This document shows positions 52,188 through 64,000 of a DNA stretch of 64,000 nucleotides, piece by piece; position 1 is the first letter of the stretch; each line of letters begins with the position of its first letter. The translations under genes and the position numbers were made by a program. The notes beneath the pieces were generated by a model that was not told the origin of the DNA, ran no database searches, and worked only from the letters and a program-made list of their open reading frames with translations. This stretch comes from Clostridia bacterium (GTDB taxonomy: Bacteria > Bacillota > Clostridia > Christensenellales > CAG-138). The stretch lies in NCBI GenBank assembly GCA_030526425.1, contig JAUNCT010000004.1, forward strand, positions 42,971 to 106,970, read 5' to 3'.

Positions 52188-52634
52188 ATGCTGATCGGTT
52201 CATTCGGTCACGCCCTCGATGCAAAGGGCCGTGTGTTCATCCCCGCACGCTGGAGAGATTCTCTCGGCGATGCCGTGATCGTGATGATGGGACTTTTGCC
52301 GGACACGGAACTGCGGTGTCTTTTTTGTATGTCCCTGACGGAGTGGGACGCCTTCGGCGCGCGCCTTTCCCAGTTGCCCGTGACCGATATGGCAGGACAG
52401 GCCGTCCGCCGCAGGCTCTATGCGAGCGCAGCCGCCTGCGAGATCGACAAGCAGGGGCGCATTCTGTTGCCGCAGAACCTGCGCGATCTTTCCGGGATCA
52501 AAAAGGACGCCACCCTCATCGGCGTCGGCAACCGCTTCGAGATTTGGGATCCCGAGCAGCTGGACAAACACAACGCCGCGGTCGACCGCGATTACGGTGC
52601 CGTACTGACGCACCTTTCGGAGTTGGGAATATGA
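52188..52634 (+). CDS. mraZ: Transcriptional regulator MraZ
   Basis: DNA-binding regulator of the dcw cluster, 148 residues, forms ring oligomers. Two AbrB-like half-domains: IGSFGHALDAKGRVFIPARWR (residues 3-23) and ACEIDKQGRILLPQNLRD (about 84-101), each with the D-x-K/Q-G-R signature. GGGAGGAG lies 12 bases upstream, slightly far. Its own operator lies over the promoter. The stop overlaps the rsmH ATG by 4 bases. Confidence 0.95.
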   Translation: MLIGSFGHALDAKGRVFIPARWRDSLGDAVIVMMGLLPDTELRCLFCMSLTEWDAFGARLSQLPVTDMAGQAVRRRLYASAAACEIDKQGRILLPQNLRDLSGIKKDATLIGVGNRFEIWDPEQLDKHNAAVDRDYGAVLTHLSELGI

Positions 52635-53566
52635 ATTTTGAACACAAGCCGGTCCTCCTCAACGAGGTCCTCGGAATCCTCCGCCCGGAACGGGGCGGAA
52701 TTTTTGTAGACGGAACGCTCGGCGGCGGCGGGCATGCGGAAGCGGTGCTCGAACGGTTGCCCGAGGGCAGCCGACTCATCGGCATCGACCGCGATACCGA
52801 AGCGATCGCCGCGGCAAGCGCAAGGCTGGCCCGTTTCGGCGACCGGTTCACCGCCATCCACGGCAATTTCTTCGACCTTGCGGCGCTTTTGGCCGAGATT
52901 GACATTCAAAAGGTCGATGGTGTATTATTTGATTTTGGTGTATCCTCGCATCAGTTGGACGTTGCGGAACGCGGTTTTTCCTACCACCGCGACGCGCCGC
53001 TCGACATGCGGATGGATCAGACGGCACCGTTTTCCGCCTATGACGTGATCAACACGTACAGCTTCGAACAGCTGTGCCGGATCCTCCGGGAGTACGGCGA
53101 AGAACGCTATGCGGACCGGATCGCCGACCGCATCCTCCGGGAACGCGAAAAGGAGCCCATCGCTTCGACGGGGCGCCTTGCGGAGATCGTTTCCGCGGCG
53201 ATGCCGAAGAAGAGCCGTTACGAGCAGCAGCACCCCGCACGCCGCACCTTTCAGGCGGTGCGTATCGAGGTGAACCGCGAGCTCGACGGTTTGCGCGAAG
53301 CCGTCGACTCCGCCCACGAACTGCTGAATCCCGGCGGACGCCTTGCCATCCTCACCTTCCACTCACTGGAAGACCGGATCGTCAAGCAGGCGTTCCGCTG
53401 CCACGAGAACCCCTGCACCTGTCCGCCCTCGGCGCCGATCTGCATCTGCGGAAAGAAGCCGACGGCCAAGATCCTGACACGGAAACCGCAGACCGCTTCG
53501 GAAGAAGAGCTGTGCGACAATTCCCGTGCGACGTGCGCAAAGCTGCGGGGGATCGAAAAACTGTGA
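52631..53566 (+). CDS. rsmH: 16S rRNA (cytosine-1402-N4)-methyltransferase RsmH (MraW)
   Basis: SAM-dependent methyltransferase acting on 16S rRNA, 311 residues. HKPVLLNEVLGILRPERGGIFVDGTLGGGGHAEAV (residues 5-39) contains the SAM loop; GVLFDFGVSSHQLDVAERGFS is the catalytic region; RRTFQAVRIEVNRELDGL and LTFHSLEDRIVKQAF are family signatures. The C-terminus has KPTAKILTRKPQ. I take the ATG overlapping the mraZ stop; longer in-frame starts lie within mraZ. Confidence 0.96.
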   Translation: MNFEHKPVLLNEVLGILRPERGGIFVDGTLGGGGHAEAVLERLPEGSRLIGIDRDTEAIAAASARLARFGDRFTAIHGNFFDLAALLAEIDIQKVDGVLFDFGVSSHQLDVAERGFSYHRDAPLDMRMDQTAPFSAYDVINTYSFEQLCRILREYGEERYADRIADRILREREKEPIASTGRLAEIVSAAMPKKSRYEQQHPARRTFQAVRIEVNRELDGLREAVDSAHELLNPGGRLAILTFHSLEDRIVKQAFRCHENPCTCPPSAPICICGKKPTAKILTRKPQTASEEELCDNSRATCAKLRGIEKL

Positions 53567-53579
53567 AGGAGGGCTGTTA

Positions 53580-54170
53580 TTGGCCCGTTTTGAAAAAGAC
53601 GACGGGAAGAGCCGCCGCGCCGGAAGCGCGGAGACCCGGCTCCACTCGATATCCGATAAGGATACGAAAAAGAAAAAACCGACCGACAACGTGACGGACG
53701 AGAATGATGAAGTCATTCCCGTTCCTTTGCATATTCAAAACCGGCGCGAAATGAACACCGGAGAGCGCGTCGGCATTCTCGTTTGCACCTTCGTGCTCGC
53801 GGGAATGATCCTCTTCGTGCTGACCGGCTACGAGCGCATCACCCGCGCCTACGCGGCGATCAACGAACTGAGCCAAAGCATCGACGACGTGAACCTGCGC
53901 ATCTCCGAGCTGAACGTCGCCATCGAATGCGCCGTGACCATCGAGCAAGCGGAAAACGCCGCGCTCGCCGCGGGCATGACCTACCCGACCGAGGCGCAGA
54001 TCTTCAACGATTACCGCTTCCCCGGAGGAAGCATCGCTCCCTCCCAGCCGCAGGTCTTTTCGAGTGACGATTCCGTCACGGCGAACGTGCCGGCAGGCAC
54101 CCCCTCCGGAGCCGACCCGACCGCGCCTTCTGCGGAACCCGGCGGGGAAGACATCCCGACGGAGGAGTGA
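53580..54170 (+). CDS. FtsL-like cell division protein
   Basis: Bitopic membrane protein, 196 residues, in the standard ftsL position between rsmH and a PBP gene. I use TTG at 53580: AAGGAGGG ends 6 bases upstream, and no ATG fits. Residues 1-62 are cytoplasmic and highly charged (DTKKKKPTDN), 64-82 a single membrane helix (VGILVCTFVLAGMILFVL), 83-130 a probable coiled coil (ITRAYAAINELSQSIDDV), and 145-196 a Pro/Ser/Glu-rich tail. FtsL proteins are poorly conserved, so assignment rests on topology and synteny. The long acidic C-terminal tail is unusual. Confidence 0.75.
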   Translation: MARFEKDDGKSRRAGSAETRLHSISDKDTKKKKPTDNVTDENDEVIPVPLHIQNRREMNTGERVGILVCTFVLAGMILFVLTGYERITRAYAAINELSQSIDDVNLRISELNVAIECAVTIEQAENAALAAGMTYPTEAQIFNDYRFPGGSIAPSQPQVFSSDDSVTANVPAGTPSGADPTAPSAEPGGEDIPTEE

Positions 54171-54173
54171 GCC

Positions 54174-56441
54174 ATGGCTTCGAACGCTTCCCCGAAAATC
54201 AAACAGAAGCTCATCTGGCTGTTCCTTGTGATGTGCGGCATCTTCATGGCGCTGGTGTTCCGCCTGTTTCAGGTCGAGATCCTGAAGGGCGATGAATACT
54301 CCGCAAAGGCAGCCCGTCAGCAAACGCGCAATTCGAGCCTCGACGCGCAGCGCGGACGCATTTTCGACCGTTCCGGTATCGTGCTCGCACAGAGCGGCAC
54401 CTCGTACCGCGTTCTGGTCAACCCGCGCATGATCAACCCCTCCGAGCGCGTCCGTATCGCTTCCGAGGTTTCGGACATTCTCGGGCTCGATTACGATTAC
54501 GTCTACACCCGCGTCTGCCGCGTGGAAAAGCAGCAGATCGTTTTGAAACGACAGGTCGACAGCGATACCGTCGACCGCATCACCGCGCTGCAGCTCGGCA
54601 ACGGTATCAGCTTCACCACGGACCTCAAGCGCTACTATCCGATGGGACAGCTCGCCGCCCAGCTCGTGGGCTTCACCGGAACCGACGGCGAAGGTCAGAC
54701 CGGCATCGAGGCTTCTTACGACGAATATCTCGCCGGCAAAAACGGGCGCCTCGTCACCCCCGTCGACCGGAGCAACAACGCCATCCCCTATGCGGATGAG
54801 GAGTACATCGCCCCCGTTCACGGTTACGACATGAACCTGACGATCGACTCCGTCGCGCAATCCTACATCGAGGCGACGCTGGCGGAAGCGTATACGCTCA
54901 ACCGTTCCGTTCAGGTCACGGCGATTCTGATGAACCCGATGACCGGAGAGATCCTCGGCACGGCGTCCGCCCCCACCTACGACCTGAACAACCCGCCGCG
55001 AAGCGATGTCGCGCTGTTGCTCGAAATGTCGCGCAACTATTCCGTTTCCATCAAGTTCGAACCCGGCAGCGCGTTCAAGACCTTTGTCCTCGCCGCCGCG
55101 CTCGACAGCGGCGCCATCAGCGAGCACGACACCTTCACCTGTCAGGGTACCGGACCTTACGGTTACGAGACCTACGGAACGAAGCGGGTCTACTGCAACG
55201 GGAAGCACGGCACCATGACCCTGCAGGAGGCGGTCGCCGTCGACTGCGACTGCGCCTTCATGCAGATGGCGCACAAGATGGGCGTCAACACGCTGTACGA
55301 TTACATCTATGCTTTCGGCTTCGGTCAAAGCACCAAGAGCGGCATCCCCGGTGAAGACAGCGGTTCCGTAACGCACCGCAAATACATCCGCGATGTCGAA
55401 CTGGCGAACCTTGCCATCGGCAAGGGGATCACCGTGACGCCGATGCAGATGGCGAACGCCTTCTCCTGCGTGGTGAACGGCGGCTATCTCATGCAGCCAT
55501 ACGTGGTGAACAACATCGTCAACGCCTCGCAGTCTTCGGAAGTGATCGTGCAGAAAGAGCCGACCATTCTGAACCGCGTGATCAAGGAAACCACCTCCGC
55601 GGTCGTGCGGAAGCTGCTGCAGGGCGTGACCAGCACCGAAAAAGGCAACGCCTCGAACGGTCAGGTCCTGAACTACGCGACGGGCGGAAAGCCCGGTTGG
55701 GCAGTCCGCAATGATTCGGAGGGGCTTGCTTCGGACACGCTGTTCGTTGCGACCTATTCCGGTTTCATTCCGGTCGACAGACCCGAGCTCGTGTGCTTTT
55801 TGATGATCGACAAGCCCGCAGTCCCGCGGTCCTACGCGCCGACGCTGGCAGCCCCCTGGGTTTCGAAGATCTTCACGAGCCTCGCGAGATATTACACCAT
55901 CGATCCCATCCAGAGCGAATCCCGTACCGTGCCCGACGTCGTCGGCATGACGATGCTCGACGCAAAGCAAACGCTGTCGAGTCAGGCGGGTCTCCCCTGT
56001 CATGTCCCGGACAGCGAGCAGGACGCGATCGTCACCGCGCAGGTCCCGGCGGCAAACAGCGTCGTGCCGCGGCAGACGCGCGTCATCCTGTACGATACGA
56101 TGACGGGCTACAACAACGAAGGCGTGTTCGTCGAAATGGTGGAAGTCCCCGATTTCACGAATATGGCGCGCGGTTACAAGTACCGCCGTGCGGAAGCGTT
56201 GGATATCGCCTCCGAGCTCGGGTTGACCATCAGCTTCGACCCGACCCACTGCACGGGCTACGTCACGGGACAGTCCATCGAACCCGGCACCATGGTGTTA
56301 CCCGGAACGGACATTTACCTGACGTTCAGCGGCTATTATGTCGCCGCCAAGCTTCCGGAACCGACCCCCGCGCCGACACCCGAACCCACGCCGGTGCCGA
56401 CGCCCGAGCCCGCGGTTCCCGAAATCCCCAACGAACCGTAA
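54174..56441 (+). CDS. Class B PBP (FtsI/SpoVD-like) with two PASTA domains and altered active-site motifs
   Basis: 755-residue bitopic protein in the ftsI/spoVD position. Membrane helix about residues 13-33; PBP dimerisation domain about 55-210 (RGRIFDRSGIVLA); transpeptidase fold about 245-575; PASTA units about 583-643 and 656-720; Pro/Glu-rich tail 728-755. The SxxK motif is present (S299-A-F-K302). The SxN motif is not: the aligned residues are D357-C-D359 (VDCDCAF, where SpoVD has SCN). The KTG motif is K506-P-G508 followed by Trp. So acylation could be kept but catalysis is probably impaired or altered. Only class B PBP in this cluster; 3 bases after the ftsL-like gene. Confidence 0.93.
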   Translation: MASNASPKIKQKLIWLFLVMCGIFMALVFRLFQVEILKGDEYSAKAARQQTRNSSLDAQRGRIFDRSGIVLAQSGTSYRVLVNPRMINPSERVRIASEVSDILGLDYDYVYTRVCRVEKQQIVLKRQVDSDTVDRITALQLGNGISFTTDLKRYYPMGQLAAQLVGFTGTDGEGQTGIEASYDEYLAGKNGRLVTPVDRSNNAIPYADEEYIAPVHGYDMNLTIDSVAQSYIEATLAEAYTLNRSVQVTAILMNPMTGEILGTASAPTYDLNNPPRSDVALLLEMSRNYSVSIKFEPGSAFKTFVLAAALDSGAISEHDTFTCQGTGPYGYETYGTKRVYCNGKHGTMTLQEAVAVDCDCAFMQMAHKMGVNTLYDYIYAFGFGQSTKSGIPGEDSGSVTHRKYIRDVELANLAIGKGITVTPMQMANAFSCVVNGGYLMQPYVVNNIVNASQSSEVIVQKEPTILNRVIKETTSAVVRKLLQGVTSTEKGNASNGQVLNYATGGKPGWAVRNDSEGLASDTLFVATYSGFIPVDRPELVCFLMIDKPAVPRSYAPTLAAPWVSKIFTSLARYYTIDPIQSESRTVPDVVGMTMLDAKQTLSSQAGLPCHVPDSEQDAIVTAQVPAANSVVPRQTRVILYDTMTGYNNEGVFVEMVEVPDFTNMARGYKYRRAEALDIASELGLTISFDPTHCTGYVTGQSIEPGTMVLPGTDIYLTFSGYYVAAKLPEPTPAPTPEPTPVPTPEPAVPEIPNEP

Positions 56442-56495: not shown

Positions 56496-57938
56496 ATGCT
56501 GTTAAGCGAATTGTGCGCGCTCGCAGGGTTGACCTGCACCGGCGGAGACGCCGAGATCGCATCGATCGAATACGATTCCCGCAAGGTCACGGAGGGCAGC
56601 CTTTTCTGTTGCATCGTCGGACAACTCACGGACGGACACAAGTATGCCGCGCAGGCCGCCGAAAAGGGCGCCGTCGCGTTGCTTGCGGAACGCCCCCTCG
56701 AGATCGCGCTGCCGCAGATCGTCACCGACAACACCCGCAAGGCGATGGCTTTGCTGGCTGCCGCGTTCTATCACTACCCGCACTACGAGATGACGATGCT
56801 CGGCGTGACCGGAACGAACGGCAAAACGACGACCACCTACATGCTCAAGTCGATCGCGGAGCACGCCGGAAAGAAGGTCGGTCTGATCGGCACGATCCGC
56901 AACATGATCGGCGAGCGGAGCCTGAACACCGAGCGCACGACGCCGGAATCGGTCGACCTGTTCCGCATCCTTCGCGAGATGGCCGATGAGCACGTCGACA
57001 TCGTGATCATGGAGGTCTCGTCCCACGCGCTCGAGCAGCACCGTGTGCACGGCATCCTGTTCGATGCCGCCGCGTTCACGAACCTGACGCAGGACCATTT
57101 GGATTACCACAAGACCTTCGACAACTACCTCAACGCGAAGAAGATCCTTTTCCGCAACACGAAGCAGGCGGTCATCAACATGGACGACCCGCACGCCGCG
57201 GCGATCGCGGAGGACTTGGATATCCCCGTGCTGACCTTCGGCATCCGCGACCGCGCGGACATCAACGCGACGGACATCGACATCACCGCGGGCGGCGTCG
57301 TTTTCGACTTGCACACCCCGCAGGGCGGCTGCCGGATGCAGCTCCCCATCCCCGGTCTTTTCAGCGTATTCAACGCGATGGGCACCGTGGGTCTCGCGCT
57401 GTGCGCGGGCATCGGTCTCAACACCATCAAAGAGGGACTGGAGGGTATGATGACCGTTTCCGGTCGTCTCGAGCCCGTGAAGATCGGCCGTCCCGTTCCC
57501 TTCTCCGTATTCGTCGACTACGCGCACACGCCCGATGCGCTGGAAAACGTACTGAATACCATCCGCGATTTTGCGAAGGCACGCGTCATCACCGTGTTCG
57601 GCTGCGGCGGAAACCGGGACCGTGCGAAGCGCCCCATCATGGGTGAAGTCGCCGGGCGGTTCAGTGAGTTCGCGGTCGTGACTTCGGACAACCCGCGCAA
57701 CGAAAAGCCGATGGACATCATCGACGCCGTCGAAGAGGGCGTCAAGCGGTCGGGGACCCCGTACACCGTGATCGAAAACCGCAAGGATGCGATCACCTAT
57801 GCGCTTTCCATCGCGGAAAAAGACGACATCGTCCTCGTTGCCGGAAAAGGACACGAGAACTATCAGGAGATCAACGGCGTCAAATACCATTTCGACGACC
57901 GCGAGATCGTGGAAGATTTGCTGAAGGAGCGTTTCTGA
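56496..57938 (+). CDS. murE: UDP-MurNAc-L-Ala-D-Glu:meso-diaminopimelate ligase
   Basis: Adds the third stem-peptide residue in peptidoglycan synthesis; cytoplasmic; 480 residues. Uridine-binding N-domain includes SIEYDSRKVTEGSLF; ATP loop VTGTNGKTTTTYML at about residues 104-117; carbamylated-lysine region EVSSHALEQHRVHGI; and SGRLEPVKIGRP. TSDNPRNEKP near residue 395 has the DNPR motif that specifies meso-DAP rather than lysine. SD GGGAGGAAA. The next gene starts 1 base after its stop; murF, usually next, is absent. Confidence 0.96.
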   Translation: MLLSELCALAGLTCTGGDAEIASIEYDSRKVTEGSLFCCIVGQLTDGHKYAAQAAEKGAVALLAERPLEIALPQIVTDNTRKAMALLAAAFYHYPHYEMTMLGVTGTNGKTTTTYMLKSIAEHAGKKVGLIGTIRNMIGERSLNTERTTPESVDLFRILREMADEHVDIVIMEVSSHALEQHRVHGILFDAAAFTNLTQDHLDYHKTFDNYLNAKKILFRNTKQAVINMDDPHAAAIAEDLDIPVLTFGIRDRADINATDIDITAGGVVFDLHTPQGGCRMQLPIPGLFSVFNAMGTVGLALCAGIGLNTIKEGLEGMMTVSGRLEPVKIGRPVPFSVFVDYAHTPDALENVLNTIRDFAKARVITVFGCGGNRDRAKRPIMGEVAGRFSEFAVVTSDNPRNEKPMDIIDAVEEGVKRSGTPYTVIENRKDAITYALSIAEKDDIVLVAGKGHENYQEINGVKYHFDDREIVEDLLKERF

Positions 57939-57939
57939 A

Positions 57940-58956
57940 ATGTTTTTGAACTGTCTGCTGGCGGCGTTGCTTGCGCTCGTGCTCATGCTGGTCATGGGTC
58001 CGTTCGTGCTGCCGATGCTGCATAAGATGAAATTCGGTCAGGTCATCCGCGAAGAGGGTCCCGCCTCGCACATGGCGAAGCAGGGAACGCCGACGATGGG
58101 CGGTCTGATGTTCCTTGCGGCGATCCTCGTCGCTTCGCTGCTGTTCGCTCTCGACGGTGCGCAGATGGTTCTGCCGACCCTCGTGACGATGCTGTTGTTC
58201 GGTCTGGTCGGTTTCCTCGACGACTTTCTGAAGATCCACCACCACCGAAACCTCGGTCTGAGAGCGTGGCAGAAGATCTTCTGTCAGGTCGGCTTCGCGT
58301 TCCTCATTTCCTTCTGGGCGTACAAATCGCCCTACATCGGAAGCTCGCTGTATCTCCCGGTATCGGGAAAGAGCTTCGACCTCGGCATTTGGTACATCCC
58401 CGCGATGATGTTCGTCATTCTCGCGGAAGTCAACGGCGTGAACCTGACGGATGGTCTCGACGGTCTTTCCGCCAGCGTAACGAGCGTATACACGCTCTCG
58501 ATGGGCGCGATCTTCATGGTGCTCGCCACGACCGCGGGCGCTGCCGGTTCTTCCGCACTCGCCGCCAACTACAAGGGCATGGCCGTGCTTTGCACCGCAG
58601 TCGTCGGCGCGCTGATGGGTTACCTGTACTTCAACGTGTACCCCGCGCGCGTATTCATGGGCGACACCGGTTCGATGGCGCTCGGCGGACTCGTTTCCGT
58701 TCTTGCCATCTGCTCGCGTTCGGTGCTGCTGCTCCCGCTGATGGGCATTTGCTTCGTCGGCAGTTGCGTTTCCGTCATCATCCAGGTCGGTTATTTCAAA
58801 ATGACGCACGGCAAACGCGTGTTCCGCATGGCTCCGCTGCACCACCACTTCGAGCTCGGCGGAATGAGCGAGACGCGCATCGTCTGCATGTACACGATGG
58901 TCACCGCAGCCTGCTGTGCGCTGAGCCTGATCAGCTACTTCATCCCCAGAACCTGA
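57940..58956 (+). CDS. mraY: Phospho-N-acetylmuramoyl-pentapeptide-transferase (MraY)
   Basis: Integral membrane enzyme making lipid I from UDP-MurNAc-pentapeptide and undecaprenyl phosphate. 338 residues, about ten helices. HMAKQGTPTMGGLMFL near residue 46 is the MraY signature; LVGFLDDFLKIHHHRNLGL contains the DDxxK motif; NLTDGLDGLSA near residue 168 and MGDTGSMALGG near 241 hold catalytic Asp residues; PLHHHFELGGMSE is the HHH loop. Start is coupled to murE. Confidence 0.96.
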   Translation: MFLNCLLAALLALVLMLVMGPFVLPMLHKMKFGQVIREEGPASHMAKQGTPTMGGLMFLAAILVASLLFALDGAQMVLPTLVTMLLFGLVGFLDDFLKIHHHRNLGLRAWQKIFCQVGFAFLISFWAYKSPYIGSSLYLPVSGKSFDLGIWYIPAMMFVILAEVNGVNLTDGLDGLSASVTSVYTLSMGAIFMVLATTAGAAGSSALAANYKGMAVLCTAVVGALMGYLYFNVYPARVFMGDTGSMALGGLVSVLAICSRSVLLLPLMGICFVGSCVSVIIQVGYFKMTHGKRVFRMAPLHHHFELGGMSETRIVCMYTMVTAACCALSLISYFIPRT

Positions 58957-59035: not shown

Positions 59036-60388
59036 ATGGAACAGAAAACAGCGCTCATCGTCGGCATGGCGAAGAGCGGTATCGGTGCCGCCAAGCTTCT
59101 TGCGAAGCAGGGTTGGCACGTGATCGTCAACGATATGAAATCCGAGATCCCGGGGCTGGAAGAAGCGCTGATGGGCGCCGAAGTCGAATACCGCCTCGGT
59201 GAGGACCCGTCTTCCCTGCTCGACGGTACGGACATGGTCGTGCCGAGCCCCATCATCCCGATGACGAAGCCCTTCCTCGTCGAAGCGCGGGAACGCGGCA
59301 TCGAGATCGTTTCCGAAATCGAACTCGGCTACCGTTATGCACAGGCGGATTTCGTGTGCATCACCGGCACGAACGGCAAAACCACCTGCACCGCCCTGAC
59401 GGGAGAGCTGTTCAAGGCAGCCGGAAAGCATACCTTCGTGCTCGGCAACATCGGCGTTGCGATCACGGAGCACGCACTGGAAACCGTGCCCGGCGACGTC
59501 ATCGTCGCGGAGACCGCCGCGCTGCAGCTGGAGGGCTGCTCCCGTTTCCATGCAAGGGCCGCAGGGTGCTGCAATGTGACCGAGGATCATCTCGACCATT
59601 TCGGTACGATGGAAAACTACACGCGCTGCAAAAACATGGTCTACATGAACCAGACCGCGGAAGACATCGCGGTGTTCAACGCGGACGATCCGACCGTTGC
59701 CGCAATGGCGGAAACAACGCCCGCCAAAGCTTATTTCTTCTCCCGCAAGGGTGAAGTCGAACGCGGCATATTCGTGCGTGACGGCATGGTCATTTACCGA
59801 GACAACGGCGTGGATACCCCCGTGCTGCGTGCGGATGAGATCCGCATCCCCGGCGGGCACAACCTCGAAAACGCGATGCTGTCTTCCCTGCTGGCGATTC
59901 CGATGGGGATCCCCGTCGAAACCGTTGCGGAGGTGCTGCGCACTTTCCCCGGCGTCGAGCACCGGATCGAGTTCGTGCGCGAGTACGAAGGCGTGCGCTA
60001 CATCAACGATTCGAAGGGAACGAACCCCGCTTCCACCATCCGCGCGATCGAAGCGATGTCGGGTCCCACGGTTCTGATCCTCGGCGGGTACGACAAACAC
60101 GGCGATTTCCACGAGCTGTTCGATGTGTTCAAAAAGACCGGGCTCGTCAAGGGCATGGTCGTGCTCGGCGCCACGCAGCAGCAGATCCTCGATACCGCGG
60201 GCGATGCCGGAATGCGCGAGCTGTGCATTCCCGTGGAAACGTTCCGCGAGGCGGTCGAAACCGCAAAGGGACTTTGCACGGAAGGCGATACGGTCCTGCT
60301 CTCCCCTGCCTGCGCCAGTTGGGGCATGTTCGACAATTTCGAACAGCGCGGCGAGATCTTCAAGCAGATCGTCAACGAATGGGTCTGA
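59036..60388 (+). CDS. murD: UDP-MurNAc-L-alanine:D-glutamate ligase
   Basis: Adds D-glutamate to UDP-MurNAc-L-Ala; cytoplasmic; 450 residues. N-terminal Rossmann domain LIVGMAKSGIGAAKLLAKQG; ATP loop ITGTNGKTTCTALTGE near residue 109; NIGVAITEHA; central N-V-T-E-D-H-L-D-H-F motif; GRNLEN-like GGHNLENAML; C-terminal EGVRYINDSKGTNPASTI and LSPACASWGMFDNFEQRG, the MurD hallmark. SD ACGGAG. Preceded by an 80-base gap with no clear terminator and followed by a strong one, so the cluster ends here without ftsW or murG. Confidence 0.96.
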   Translation: MEQKTALIVGMAKSGIGAAKLLAKQGWHVIVNDMKSEIPGLEEALMGAEVEYRLGEDPSSLLDGTDMVVPSPIIPMTKPFLVEARERGIEIVSEIELGYRYAQADFVCITGTNGKTTCTALTGELFKAAGKHTFVLGNIGVAITEHALETVPGDVIVAETAALQLEGCSRFHARAAGCCNVTEDHLDHFGTMENYTRCKNMVYMNQTAEDIAVFNADDPTVAAMAETTPAKAYFFSRKGEVERGIFVRDGMVIYRDNGVDTPVLRADEIRIPGGHNLENAMLSSLLAIPMGIPVETVAEVLRTFPGVEHRIEFVREYEGVRYINDSKGTNPASTIRAIEAMSGPTVLILGGYDKHGDFHELFDVFKKTGLVKGMVVLGATQQQILDTAGDAGMRELCIPVETFREAVETAKGLCTEGDTVLLSPACASWGMFDNFEQRGEIFKQIVNEWV

Positions 60389-60405
60389 CGCAAAGTCAAC
60401 GGTAA

Positions 60406-60439
60406 AAAAGACCACGCAACCGGAGTTGCGTGGTCTTTT
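60406..60439. terminator. Bidirectional intrinsic terminator
   Basis: A 15-bp perfect stem (60406-60420 with 60425-60439), loop CGGA, A-run left and T-run right. Ends the dcw cluster and the convergent Ntn-hydrolase operon. Confidence 0.92.
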
Positions 60440-60450
60440 CGTATGTTCGG

Positions 60451-61650
60451 TTATTCCGCCTTCAGCGCATAGTTGAATTCCGCATCGGGCTCATTGTAGT
60501 GTTCGTTCGGGACCCACATCACGGTGCGGTCGGTCAGATTGTAGATCGCGCTGTGCACGGTGATGCCGTTGCCGTCGTCGTTGTTCCAGCTGCGGCGGCC
60601 GACGATGGAAAGCACATCCATCGCCGCTTTTTCATCCGCGACGATGCCGTTGGTCTTGCCGAGCTCCTCATACAGGCGCTCGTAGCGGTCTGCGCCCTTC
60701 TTGTCCTCGGCGGGGGACCCCTCATAGTAGCCGGGCTGGATGACGAAGTTCGTCACGACCTGATAATCCGCAGCGGCTTCGGTTTCGCCGATGTGCGCGT
60801 CCATGTCGTTGTAGGTCACGACAAGCTCACGTGCCGAACCGTCGTTATCGGTGGAATCGGTCGTGCCGACCCATTCGAGCACCGCGCTGCGGCCGGAAGC
60901 ATCCGCCACCATGTAGTGGTAAGAGGTACCTGCGGAATCGTGCAGGTCGTATGCGGAAGCGATCTGGACCGCCTCATCGAGATCGTCGGCGTAGTCGAGG
61001 ATGAGCCGCAGAAGCGTCGTGGAGGTGAAGTCCGGCTTTTCGGTCTCCTGCGCGGTGGCGATGGTCTTCTCGCCGCCCTGATAGGTCATGTAGATACCAC
61101 AGGCAACGCCGGCGTCGTTGATGCCGTCGAGCGGCGCATAGGTCGCCGCCAGACACGTGATCTTCTTCATGAGCCCCTCGACGTTCTTGTTCGCATCCAT
61201 CCCGAGGAACCGGAGGTCGACCGTGGAGACGGAAGCGTGACGACCGGGATTCTTTTCCGTGAAGACCAGGCAGGTATTGGTCTTCGTCATATCGTAGTTG
61301 CGGGCAAAGAGCTTTTTGCCGTCGGTCGTGGTCGCGGTGAAGGAGGAGCATGCGATCTCGGGGTCCTTCATATCGATCTTGATCAGTCCCTTGGTGATCT
61401 TGTTCGTGACGAAGTTGATCAGTTCGGCGTCGTTCTTGGCGCCGCCCTGCGCAAGGAAATCATCCAGATAGAAACCGCCCTTGACGTGCATGGTGTAGAC
61501 AGCACCGTCCTTGTGGGAGTCGTCGCGGTCGCGCAGGAGCTTCATGCTCGCAACGGTCGCGATCTCATTCCGCCAAGTGAACGCAACGACACCGCAGAGC
61601 AACACGATGAGTGCCAGCAGAGCCAGCAAGATCCTTTTGAAAACTTTCAT
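60451..61650 (-). CDS. Membrane-anchored linear amide C-N hydrolase (Ntn/choloylglycine hydrolase-like)
   Basis: 399 residues. A hydrophobic segment (about 6-24) anchors or exports it. From C101 the sequence follows the choloylglycine-hydrolase/penicillin-acylase pattern: C101-S-S, FARNYD with R117 and D120 (the Cys-to-Arg distance of 16 equals that in bile-salt hydrolases), GINDAGVACGIYM near residue 180 and SYHYMVADASGRSAVLEW near 245. In this superfamily the Cys must become N-terminal, so the first 100 residues should be removed or the enzyme activated otherwise. Substrate may be an N-acyl amide, bile acid conjugate or penicillin-like compound; undecided. It lies 16 bases downstream of the ALDH gene on the same strand. 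Confidence 0.82.
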   Translation of the reverse strand: MKVFKRILLALLALIVLLCGVVAFTWRNEIATVASMKLLRDRDDSHKDGAVYTMHVKGGFYLDDFLAQGGAKNDAELINFVTNKITKGLIKIDMKDPEIACSSFTATTTDGKKLFARNYDMTKTNTCLVFTEKNPGRHASVSTVDLRFLGMDANKNVEGLMKKITCLAATYAPLDGINDAGVACGIYMTYQGGEKTIATAQETEKPDFTSTTLLRLILDYADDLDEAVQIASAYDLHDSAGTSYHYMVADASGRSAVLEWVGTTDSTDNDGSARELVVTYNDMDAHIGETEAAADYQVVTNFVIQPGYYEGSPAEDKKGADRYERLYEELGKTNGIVADEKAAMDVLSIVGRRSWNNDDGNGITVHSAIYNLTDRTVMWVPNEHYNEPDAEFNYALKAE

Positions 61651-61666
61651 TCTTATTTTCCTTTTC

Positions 61667-63049
61667 TTATTTCAAAAACAGTTCCAGCAGTTTTTGGTTG
61701 AGCTTACTTGTATACGGTTGGTAGCGCATGGGAAGATCCAGCCACGTCTTTTTGTCGATGACCGATTTTTTGTGACTGAACGCATCGAACCCGGCTTTGC
61801 CGTGGTATGCGCCCATACCGCTCGCCCCGACGCCGCCGAAGCCCATGCCGCTCGTCGCGAGGTGGATGATGACGTCGTTGACGCAGCCGCCGCCAAACGC
61901 GAGTTCTTTGTCGTAGCGGTCCCGGTGCGCTTTGTCACTTGTGAAGAGATACGCCGCAAGCGGTCTCTCCGCCTGTTTCAGCCGCTCGATCACCGTGCCG
62001 AAATCATCGAAAACGAGGACGGGCATCACCGGTCCGAAGATCTCTTCCCGCATGACGGGATCGTTCTCCGTAACGCCGTCCATGACGGTCGGCGCGATGC
62101 GCAGGCTTTCCGCATCCGCATTGCCGCCGTGTACGACCTTTTCCGGGTCGATCAGCCCCATGATGCGATCGAAGTGCTTGCGGTTGATGATCTTGCCGTA
62201 GTCGGGATTCGTGAGCGGATCGGCGCCGAATTGCGCTCCGATCTGCTTTTTGACCTCACGCAGGAACGCGTCCTTCACGGAACGCTCGCACAAAATGTAA
62301 TCGGGCGCGACGCAGGTCTGACCGCAGTTGAGATACTTGCCGAACACGATGCGCTTCGCCGCCAGCGGGATATCCGCCGTCGCGTCGACGATACAGGGGC
62401 TTTTTCCGCCGAGTTCCAGCACGGCGGGCGTCAGATGCTCCGCACAGCGGCGGAGGACCTCCCTGCCGACCGCCTGAGAGCCGGTGAAAAACACCAGGTC
62501 GAAGCGCTGGTCGAGCAACGCGTTGTTCTCTTCCCTGCTGCCGGTGACGACGGCAACATATTCTTCGGGGAAGATCTCGCCGAGCATCTCCGCAATGACT
62601 TTGCTCGTTGCGGGGGAATACGCCGCCGGTTTGACGATCGCCGTGTTTCCCGCTGCGATCGCATCGGCAAGGGGTTCGACGGTGAGCATGAAGGGATAAT
62701 TCCACGGACTCATGATCAGCGTGTTGCCGTAAGGCACCGGCTGCACGTAGCTGTGCGAGGCGAACTGCGCCAGCGGCGTCGCAACGGTTTTCTTGCGGGA
62801 GAAGGCACCGACGTGCCGGATTATATAAGTGATCTCCGCAAGGGTCATGCCGATCTCGCACATATAACCTTCGGTCGGGCTTTTCCCGAGGTCCGCCGTA
62901 AGCGCCTGTTCGATCCGCGGACGGTACCGCACGATCGCCCCATACAGCTTTTTCAGCTGTTCCTTCCGGAAAGCGACCGGAAGCGTTGTCCCCGTTTGAA
63001 AATATGCGCGCTGTTTGTCCCGCAGCGCGGCGATCTGTTCTTTGTTCAT
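61667..63049 (-). CDS. Aldehyde dehydrogenase (class 3-like)
   Basis: NAD(P)-dependent oxidation of an aldehyde to the acid; 460 residues from the ATG at 63049, with GGGAGGG upstream. The short length and C-terminal region resemble class 3 ALDH. MSPWNYPFMLTVEPLADAIAAGNTAIVKP is the cofactor region near residue 105; FFTGSQAVGREV the NAD loop; LELGGKSPCIVD holds the general-base Glu; YLNCGQTCVAPDYIL the nucleophilic Cys. EEIFGPVMPVLVFDD follows. Its ATG overlaps the stop of the alcohol dehydrogenase gene by 4 bases, so the pair could oxidise an alcohol to the acid or run in reverse. Confidence 0.93.
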   Translation of the reverse strand: MNKEQIAALRDKQRAYFQTGTTLPVAFRKEQLKKLYGAIVRYRPRIEQALTADLGKSPTEGYMCEIGMTLAEITYIIRHVGAFSRKKTVATPLAQFASHSYVQPVPYGNTLIMSPWNYPFMLTVEPLADAIAAGNTAIVKPAAYSPATSKVIAEMLGEIFPEEYVAVVTGSREENNALLDQRFDLVFFTGSQAVGREVLRRCAEHLTPAVLELGGKSPCIVDATADIPLAAKRIVFGKYLNCGQTCVAPDYILCERSVKDAFLREVKKQIGAQFGADPLTNPDYGKIINRKHFDRIMGLIDPEKVVHGGNADAESLRIAPTVMDGVTENDPVMREEIFGPVMPVLVFDDFGTVIERLKQAERPLAAYLFTSDKAHRDRYDKELAFGGGCVNDVIIHLATSGMGFGGVGASGMGAYHGKAGFDAFSHKKSVIDKKTWLDLPMRYQPYTSKLNQKLLELFLK

Positions 63050-64000
63050 GCTTCCCTCCCTGCTGAAATGCGGCGGTAAATAACAGCGATTTGTTCCTCC
63101 GTCCACAACACGGGAACGGGGTACAGCGGGTTCGCTTCGTGTTCCGCGTGCCGTGCAAGCGCGGGGATGTCTTCCTCGCGGATATCCGAAATCGTTTCGG
63201 GGATCTCCATCGAAGCGTTCAGCTCCCGGATGGCGCGGATAAAGCGCTTTGCGCCCTCTTCATGGGTATGTTCTTCCGTGCAGACGCCTGCGGCAATGCC
63301 GAGTTCATGCAGCTTTTTGCTTGCGGCGGCACCGTAGGCTTCGAGCACGTAGGGCATCGTGACCGCGTTTGCCAGACCGTGCGGCGTACCGTAATGACCG
63401 CCGAGCGAATGCGCGACCGCATGGACATAGCCGACATAGGACTGTGTGAACGCTTCTCCCGCACGGTAAGCGGCATGGAGCATGTTCTTTCTTGCCGTGA
63501 GGTCCGTTCCGTCCGTGTACGCGGTGCGGATGTTTTCGAACACGAGGCGCGTTGCTTCCAACGCATAGCGGCGGGTCATCTTGGTGGTCGACCTGCCAAT
63601 GTACGTTTCGACGGCGTGGGTCAAAGCATCCATGCCCGTCGTTGCGGTCAGATGCTTGGGCAGGGAAACCGTCAGCTTCGGGTCGAGCACGGCGTACCGC
63701 GGAATGAGCGGAAAGCTCATAATGGCGTACTTATCCATTTTCGCGCTGTCGGTGACGATCGCCGCCAAGGTGACCTCACTGCCCGTACCCGCAGTCGTCG
63801 GGACGGCGATGAGCAGCGGAAGCTTGCGCCATACACGCAGGATGCCCTTCATTTTGCGGAGGCTCTTTTTCGGATGTGCGAGGCGCGCGCCGACGCATTT
63901 GGCGCAATCCATCGCGGAACCGCCGCCGACGGCGATCAGCGCAGCACAATCGTTTTCACGGTAGACCCGCAAGGCATCGGCAACGTTTTCCACGGTGGGA
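63046..64000 (-). CDS. Iron-containing alcohol dehydrogenase (5' end cut by window)
   Basis: C-terminal 318 or so residues of a group III alcohol dehydrogenase (full length about 385). The frame stays open to the right edge, reading Pro-Thr before VENVADALRVYRE, which is the usual internal PTVENV motif, so the GTG at 63993 is not the start. GGGSAMDCAKCVG is the NAD loop, PTTAGTGSEVT a family signature, TTGMDALTHAVETYIG and YVHAVAHSLGGHYGTPHGLAN hold the Asp and three His metal ligands. First gene of the ADH-ALDH-Ntn hydrolase run on the minus strand. Confidence 0.93.
   Translation of the reverse strand, partial: PTVENVADALRVYRENDCAALIAVGGGSAMDCAKCVGARLAHPKKSLRKMKGILRVWRKLPLLIAVPTTAGTGSEVTLAAIVTDSAKMDKYAIMSFPLIPRYAVLDPKLTVSLPKHLTATTGMDALTHAVETYIGRSTTKMTRRYALEATRLVFENIRTAYTDGTDLTARKNMLHAAYRAGEAFTQSYVGYVHAVAHSLGGHYGTPHGLANAVTMPYVLEAYGAAASKKLHELGIAAGVCTEEHTHEEGAKRFIRAIRELNASMEIPETISDIREEDIPALARHAEHEANPLYPVPVLWTEEQIAVIYRRISAGREA

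Follow-up and report, generated by a model that had tools for sequence, protein, structure and literature searches.

Gene organisation of the dcw locus

The window, the 64,000-nucleotide stretch of DNA analysed here, is part of a 109-kb contig of genome G000, a 2.2-Mb assembly of 58 contigs that is 72% complete. It carries a division and cell-wall (dcw) cluster in which a penicillin-binding protein (PBP) gene is found in the order mraZ, rsmH, ftsL-like gene, PBP gene, murE, mraY and murD (Table 1). The putative ftsL gene gave no match in a Pfam search. The cluster ends at murD and is followed by genes on the opposite strand (60388-64000). The one adjoining murD (60454-61650, minus strand) encodes an NTN-hydrolase-like protein matching PF03417 (acyl-CoA:6-aminopenicillanic acid acyltransferase) and PF02275 (choloylglycine hydrolase). 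In a comparison of ftsW positions that took in loci L085, L090 and L093, ftsW was located on a separate contig in G000, distant from the PBP gene in genomes G010 and G031 of genus g11, and inside the dcw cluster in G005 and G006.

Table 1. Genes of the dcw cluster in the window and sites within the PBP gene
Feature	Position	Strand	Remarks
mraZ	52188..52634	+	PF02381
rsmH (mraW)	52631..53566	+	PF01795
ftsL-like gene, start codon uncertain	53526..54170	+	putative, from position/synteny and anatomy (one TM, coiled-coil-like)
dcw-cluster class B PBP, degenerate active site	54174..56441	+	755 aa; TM helix, PBP_dimer, Transpeptidase, 2 PASTA
SxxK motif, S299-A-F-K302, intact	55068..55079	+	from alignment; Lys lost in genus g11
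C323, predicted Zn ligand 1	55140..55142	+	Cys in 44/44 relatives
C341, predicted Zn ligand 2	55194..55196	+	Cys in 44/44
H345, predicted Zn ligand 3	55206..55208	+	His in 44/44
SxN position, D357-C358-D359 (gac tgc gac)	55242..55250	+	S-C-N in canonical relatives; C358 is predicted Zn ligand 4
KTGT position, K506-P507-G508-W509	55689..55700	+	from alignment
murE	56496..57938	+	Mur_ligase domains
mraY	57940..58956	+	PF00953/PF10555
murD	59036..60388	+	MurD-like_N

Active-site motifs of the dcw-cluster PBP

The PBP open reading frame is free of internal stops and frameshifts. Profile searches, with every match far over its cut-off, placed a PBP_dimer domain at residues 57-204, a Transpeptidase domain at 249-567 (202.9 bits against a cut-off of 22.1) and two PASTA domains in its product, which, with an N-terminal TM helix and no GT51 domain, has the architecture of a class B PBP. 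The closest solved structure by both sequence and fold was C. difficile SpoVD (top Foldseek hit 7rcz, E 8e-51), and the protein shares its domain order, dcw position, fold and Cys3His Zn ligands with the SpoVD/PBP2B-type PASTA PBPs (C. difficile SpoVD, B. subtilis PBP2B and SpoVD). It differs from these in having neither SxN nor KTG, and its relatives in g11 have also lost the SxxK lysine. Against the SpoVD equivalog model TIGR02214 it scored 471.9 bits, below the cut-off of 688, as did canonical members of the family (577-647 bits).

Motif positions were assigned by alignment to C. difficile SpoVD (7rcz) and gonococcal PBP2. Both alignments bore out the original prediction that SxxK is intact, and the reading of the KTG triad as K-P-G followed by Trp was likewise confirmed. 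At the SxN position the predicted residues D-C-D were correct, but their codons are those given in Table 1 and not 55248-55260. Thus, of the three motifs of an active serine D,D-transpeptidase the protein has SxxK and lacks SxN and K(T/S)G(T/S). In an AlphaFold2 model (pLDDT 86), S299 starts a helix (298-312), residues 357-359 lie between helices 350-355 and 359-369, and residues 506-508 lie on a strand (504-513). Since these are the canonical structural places, the true motifs are not to be sought elsewhere in the chain, and HMM alignments and models alike yielded no canonical SxN or KTG at any other site.

Motif state across the family

We searched 103 genomes of the same family and aligned the dcw PBP genes recovered, which fell into 35 canonical sequences and nine with lesions, referred to below as pseudo-PBPs: those of G000, G005 and seven species of g11 (G010, G031, G119, G120, G121, G122 and G124). 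The G005 protein, 59% identical to that of the window, reads SLFK, NCD and LSGL at the three sites. In the g11 proteins (48-52% identical) the SxxK site reads S/T-M-F-D/E/G, the catalytic Lys being absent in all seven recovered species; the SxN site is mostly SCN or close to it, and the KTG site is I-T/S-G-V, with Lys replaced by Ile wherever the sequence reaches it, that of G124 being truncated before this point. Canonical motifs were found in the sister genus represented by G006 (52% identical) and at locus L154. Further SxxD/E PBPs were sought in 396 genomes of the order by a scan that detects K-to-D/E changes only; it gave 49 pattern hits, and among the 30 inspected as loci the sole PBP was that of g11.

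On established PBP chemistry, the loss of the SxxK lysine makes it nearly certain that the g11 proteins are inactive. For the window's PBP, the two lost motifs and the 33 eroded columns described below suggest inactivity as well; its retention of SxxK, however, may still allow acylation and counts against regarding it as a pseudo-transpeptidase.

Erosion affects only the transpeptidase domain

We scored changes at columns with at least 97% conservation among the canonical relatives, the tested sequence being left out each time. Among about 100 such columns in the transpeptidase domain, 23-33 were changed in the eight full-length pseudo-PBPs as against 0-6 in the 35 canonical sequences; the truncated protein of G124 had 12 of 69 changed. 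The corresponding figures for the dimerisation domain were 2-3 of 30 in pseudo-PBPs and 0-3 of 30-32 in canonical proteins, and for the PASTA columns 0-2 of 16 and 0-3, respectively. In the window's PBP, 33 of 100 transpeptidase columns were changed compared with 2 of 30 in the dimerisation domain. Separate assemblies of related genera show different lesions at the same sites, and this, together with the contrast between the two domains, excludes sequencing error or chance.

Pairwise dN/dS (Nei-Gojobori, with dS often near saturation) stayed well under 1 in every domain, with values of 0.01-0.16 for the dimerisation domain. For each of the five pairs of pseudo-PBPs, divergence was faster in the transpeptidase domain than in the dimerisation domain, with identities for the latter and the former of, for example, 98% versus 81%, or 77% versus 52% between G000 and G005; canonical pairs displayed no consistent trend. 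Erosion confined to the transpeptidase domain, combined with this dN/dS pattern, is the signature of a protein retained for a non-catalytic purpose. That the eroded domain might instead mark a functionless gene in terminal decay, a pseudogene in the making, is barely credible: reading frames are full-length in all complete copies, the dimerisation domain is under the constraint given above, the position in the dcw cluster is retained, and the TM helix, dimerisation and PASTA domains and Zn ligands are conserved across genera at 48-59% identity. The original prediction that decay is unlikely is thus borne out at the level of the whole protein, though not at its active site, which has decayed.

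The predicted Zn ligands C323, C341, H345 and C358 form a Cys3His tetrad that is kept in all 44 sequences, pseudo-PBPs included. The same set of four, Cys/Asp, Cys/Asp, His and the Cys of SxN, has been described for SpoVD-type serine PBPs that bind Zn2+ in anaerobic Firmicutes (PMC9334274), from which the pseudo-PBPs differ in that the predicted site persists without the surrounding catalytic residues. Its survival in every pseudo-PBP indicates that its role is separable from catalysis.

This site also enters into another explanation, by which, in g1 and g6 only, S299/K302, D357/D359 and the Zn site would make up a new active site of an enzyme with altered chemistry or substrate. SxxK and the Zn ligands are indeed kept in both G000 and G005, as is an Asp at the third SxN position. 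However, the replacement at the KTG site differs between these two nearest genera (KPGW and LSGL), 33 conserved columns are eroded in each, their transpeptidase domains are far less alike than their dimerisation domains, and SxxK is lost altogether in g11. We therefore regard an altered enzyme, one of the options originally put forward, as improbable. The option of a pseudo-transpeptidase kept as scaffold has good support: the motif loss is clade-wide, varies with lineage and extends to SxxK in g11, erosion affects the transpeptidase domain only, and the genome has a second class B PBP that is intact, described below.

Phylogeny of the motif losses

In a tree of full-length PBPs the nine pseudo-PBPs formed one clade (98/96), which counts against two origins; this tree, however, includes the converging catalytic domain. 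With that domain removed, G000 and G005 were placed apart from g11 and G006 (93/78). The branching order was not resolved by murE alone. In a five-gene tree (RsmH, MurE, MraY, MurD and FtsW), the canonical G006 and L154 grouped with g11 (85/87) and G000 with G005 (99/99), and a single pseudo-PBP clade was rejected (AU p 0.009). As the five-gene tree rejects a single origin, two inactivations are favoured, though not proven; on these sequences the PBP was probably inactivated twice independently, in g1 and g6 and in g11.

Other cell wall enzymes of the pseudo-clade

The pseudo-clade genomes and G006 yielded no more than one SEDS protein each, compared with two or three in seven outgroups. It is FtsW, with the catalytic Asp of E-S-D-F-I-F kept. 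DivIB was present in every reasonably complete genome. Loss of the MreB system was considered as a correlate and rejected, as MreB is kept in the clade, the incomplete G000 giving only weaker MreB-like matches. Even so, the more complete genomes, in which MreB is kept, have a single SEDS protein, and no RodA/PbpA-type pair was seen in G000, G005, G006 or g11.

The second, canonical class B PBP that the original prediction proposed to look for was found. It is of the MecA_N type, homologous to Listeria PBP3, enterococcal PBP4/5 and MecA, and was present in all clade genomes except the fragmented G124; SxxK, SDN and KTGT were intact in 10 of the 10 copies read, G006 included. The partner L002, for instance, has a PF05223 domain and intact SxxK, SxN and KTG, which identifies it as a MecA_N (PBP3/Pbp4/PBP2a) class B PBP. 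No other class B PBP was found in the clade besides the dcw protein, and canonical relatives carry MecA_N PBPs too. The MecA_N PBPs of the clade have a long N-terminal low-complexity insertion rich in Pro, Thr and Asp (DPNATPDPNAT...), seen in L135, L136, L137, L139, L149, L150 (g11) and L151 (G000).

The presence of a low-affinity MecA-type partner, and the fact that loss of KTG and SxN would abolish beta-lactam binding, might suggest that antibiotic pressure reshaped the active site. We consider this very unlikely, given that MecA_N PBPs do not track with motif loss, being found in canonical relatives, and that g11, having lost the Lys entirely, shows inactivation and not tuning. Insensitivity to beta-lactams would follow from inactivity, but judging from these sequences it does not look like a selected trait.

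One canonical class A PBP was found in G005 and in each g11 genome except G123. None was seen in G000, from which, at 72% completeness, further PBPs may be missing; assembly errors, which cannot account for the lesion pattern, could affect such gene absences. The genomes also encode one to four YkuD proteins each, similar to the outgroups, and expansion of L,D-transpeptidases as compensation was rejected. A pseudo-PBP might be accompanied by septal cross-linking mainly by the class A PBP or by L,D-transpeptidases and not by the MecA_N PBP. The divisome of C. difficile uses the class A PBP1 (PMC12539705) and, in S. aureus, PBP2a is unable to replace the transpeptidase of PBP1 (PMC7617827), so that MecA_N PBPs are not always sufficient and the actual donor may be a class A PBP. 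Against this, YkuD numbers are not raised, G000 as assembled has no class A PBP, and, besides the dcw protein, the MecA_N PBP is the sole class B enzyme and has conserved motifs; we take such a route to be possible but somewhat unlikely.

Association with sporulation

SpoIVA was found in eight of eight canonical genomes, including G006, but not in any of the ten pseudo-clade genomes, of which several have a completeness of 92-98%. This comparison concerns one marker in 18 non-independent genomes, amounting to about two joint losses on the five-gene tree, and the ten negative genomes include G123, in which the dcw PBP was not recovered, and the 72%-complete G000. Other sporulation markers (genes after ftsZ; spoIIID near mreB) were not found in the controls either. 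While the window's PBP is of the SpoVD type, SpoVD belongs to endospore-forming organisms, and by the absence of SpoIVA, a single marker in an incomplete assembly, the organism of the window would not be one.

Discussion

Class B PBPs have two jobs, the activation of a SEDS partner and cross-linking. We propose, with a probability of roughly 0.7, that the window's protein is a natural pseudo-transpeptidase which serves as partner and scaffold of FtsW, with cross-linking in trans by the MecA_N PBP, and whose active site eroded after the loss of sporulation. It would descend from an active class B PBP of the SpoVD/FtsI type that lost D,D-transpeptidation, and may have been retained as a structural partner that activates FtsW, the one SEDS glycosyltransferase that the genome was found to encode, and as a platform on which the divisome assembles. 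The MecA_N class B PBP, whose gene lies elsewhere, would supply the cross-links, perhaps with help from the class A PBP.

Such a division of labour resembles two known systems, and mutants made in the laboratory show that it is feasible. In B. subtilis, PBP2B S309A is viable provided that PBP3, a MecA_N PBP, is present (PMC5656894), a dead division PBP thus serving as scaffold beside a MecA_N enzyme; that protein, however, is a laboratory point mutant, while the state of this clade is natural, involves multiple residues and is conserved among species. In E. faecalis, PbpB is required for FtsW activation even with its transpeptidase inactivated, and the MecA_N protein Pbp4 cross-links (PMC12724132), but inactivation there is drug-caused and transient, unlike that of the pseudo-PBPs.

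The ancestral catalysis was probably maintained by sporulation, for the spore cortex. In lineages with one SEDS protein, a single pair of FtsW/SpoVE-like and SpoVD/FtsI-like proteins may have served both division and cortex, and loss of sporulation, in g1 and g6 and separately in g11, would have freed the PBP active site from selection, so that it eroded and the scaffold was kept. We give even odds to the more general statement that in this lineage it is sporulation, and not division, that keeps the dcw PBP catalytic, and that its loss, at least twice, left FtsW with a dead class B PBP and all cross-linking in trans.

In the open-access papers searched we found no precedent for a natural pseudo-PBP, SEDS activation and cross-linking having so far been separated there only by laboratory mutation or drugs. 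A catalysis-free division PBP appears to have been fixed in nature, apparently twice, in proteins that automatic annotation would probably label as active transpeptidases. The clade offers a way to find the surfaces through which a division PBP activates FtsW, namely those kept conserved, and bears on the purpose of a Zn site that survives without catalysis and on why the active sites of other division PBPs stay conserved. A further prediction is that organisms exist in which the main septal PBP cannot serve as a beta-lactam target. If the link to sporulation is true, these lineages would represent a repeated natural experiment separating the allosteric from the catalytic role of a class B PBP.
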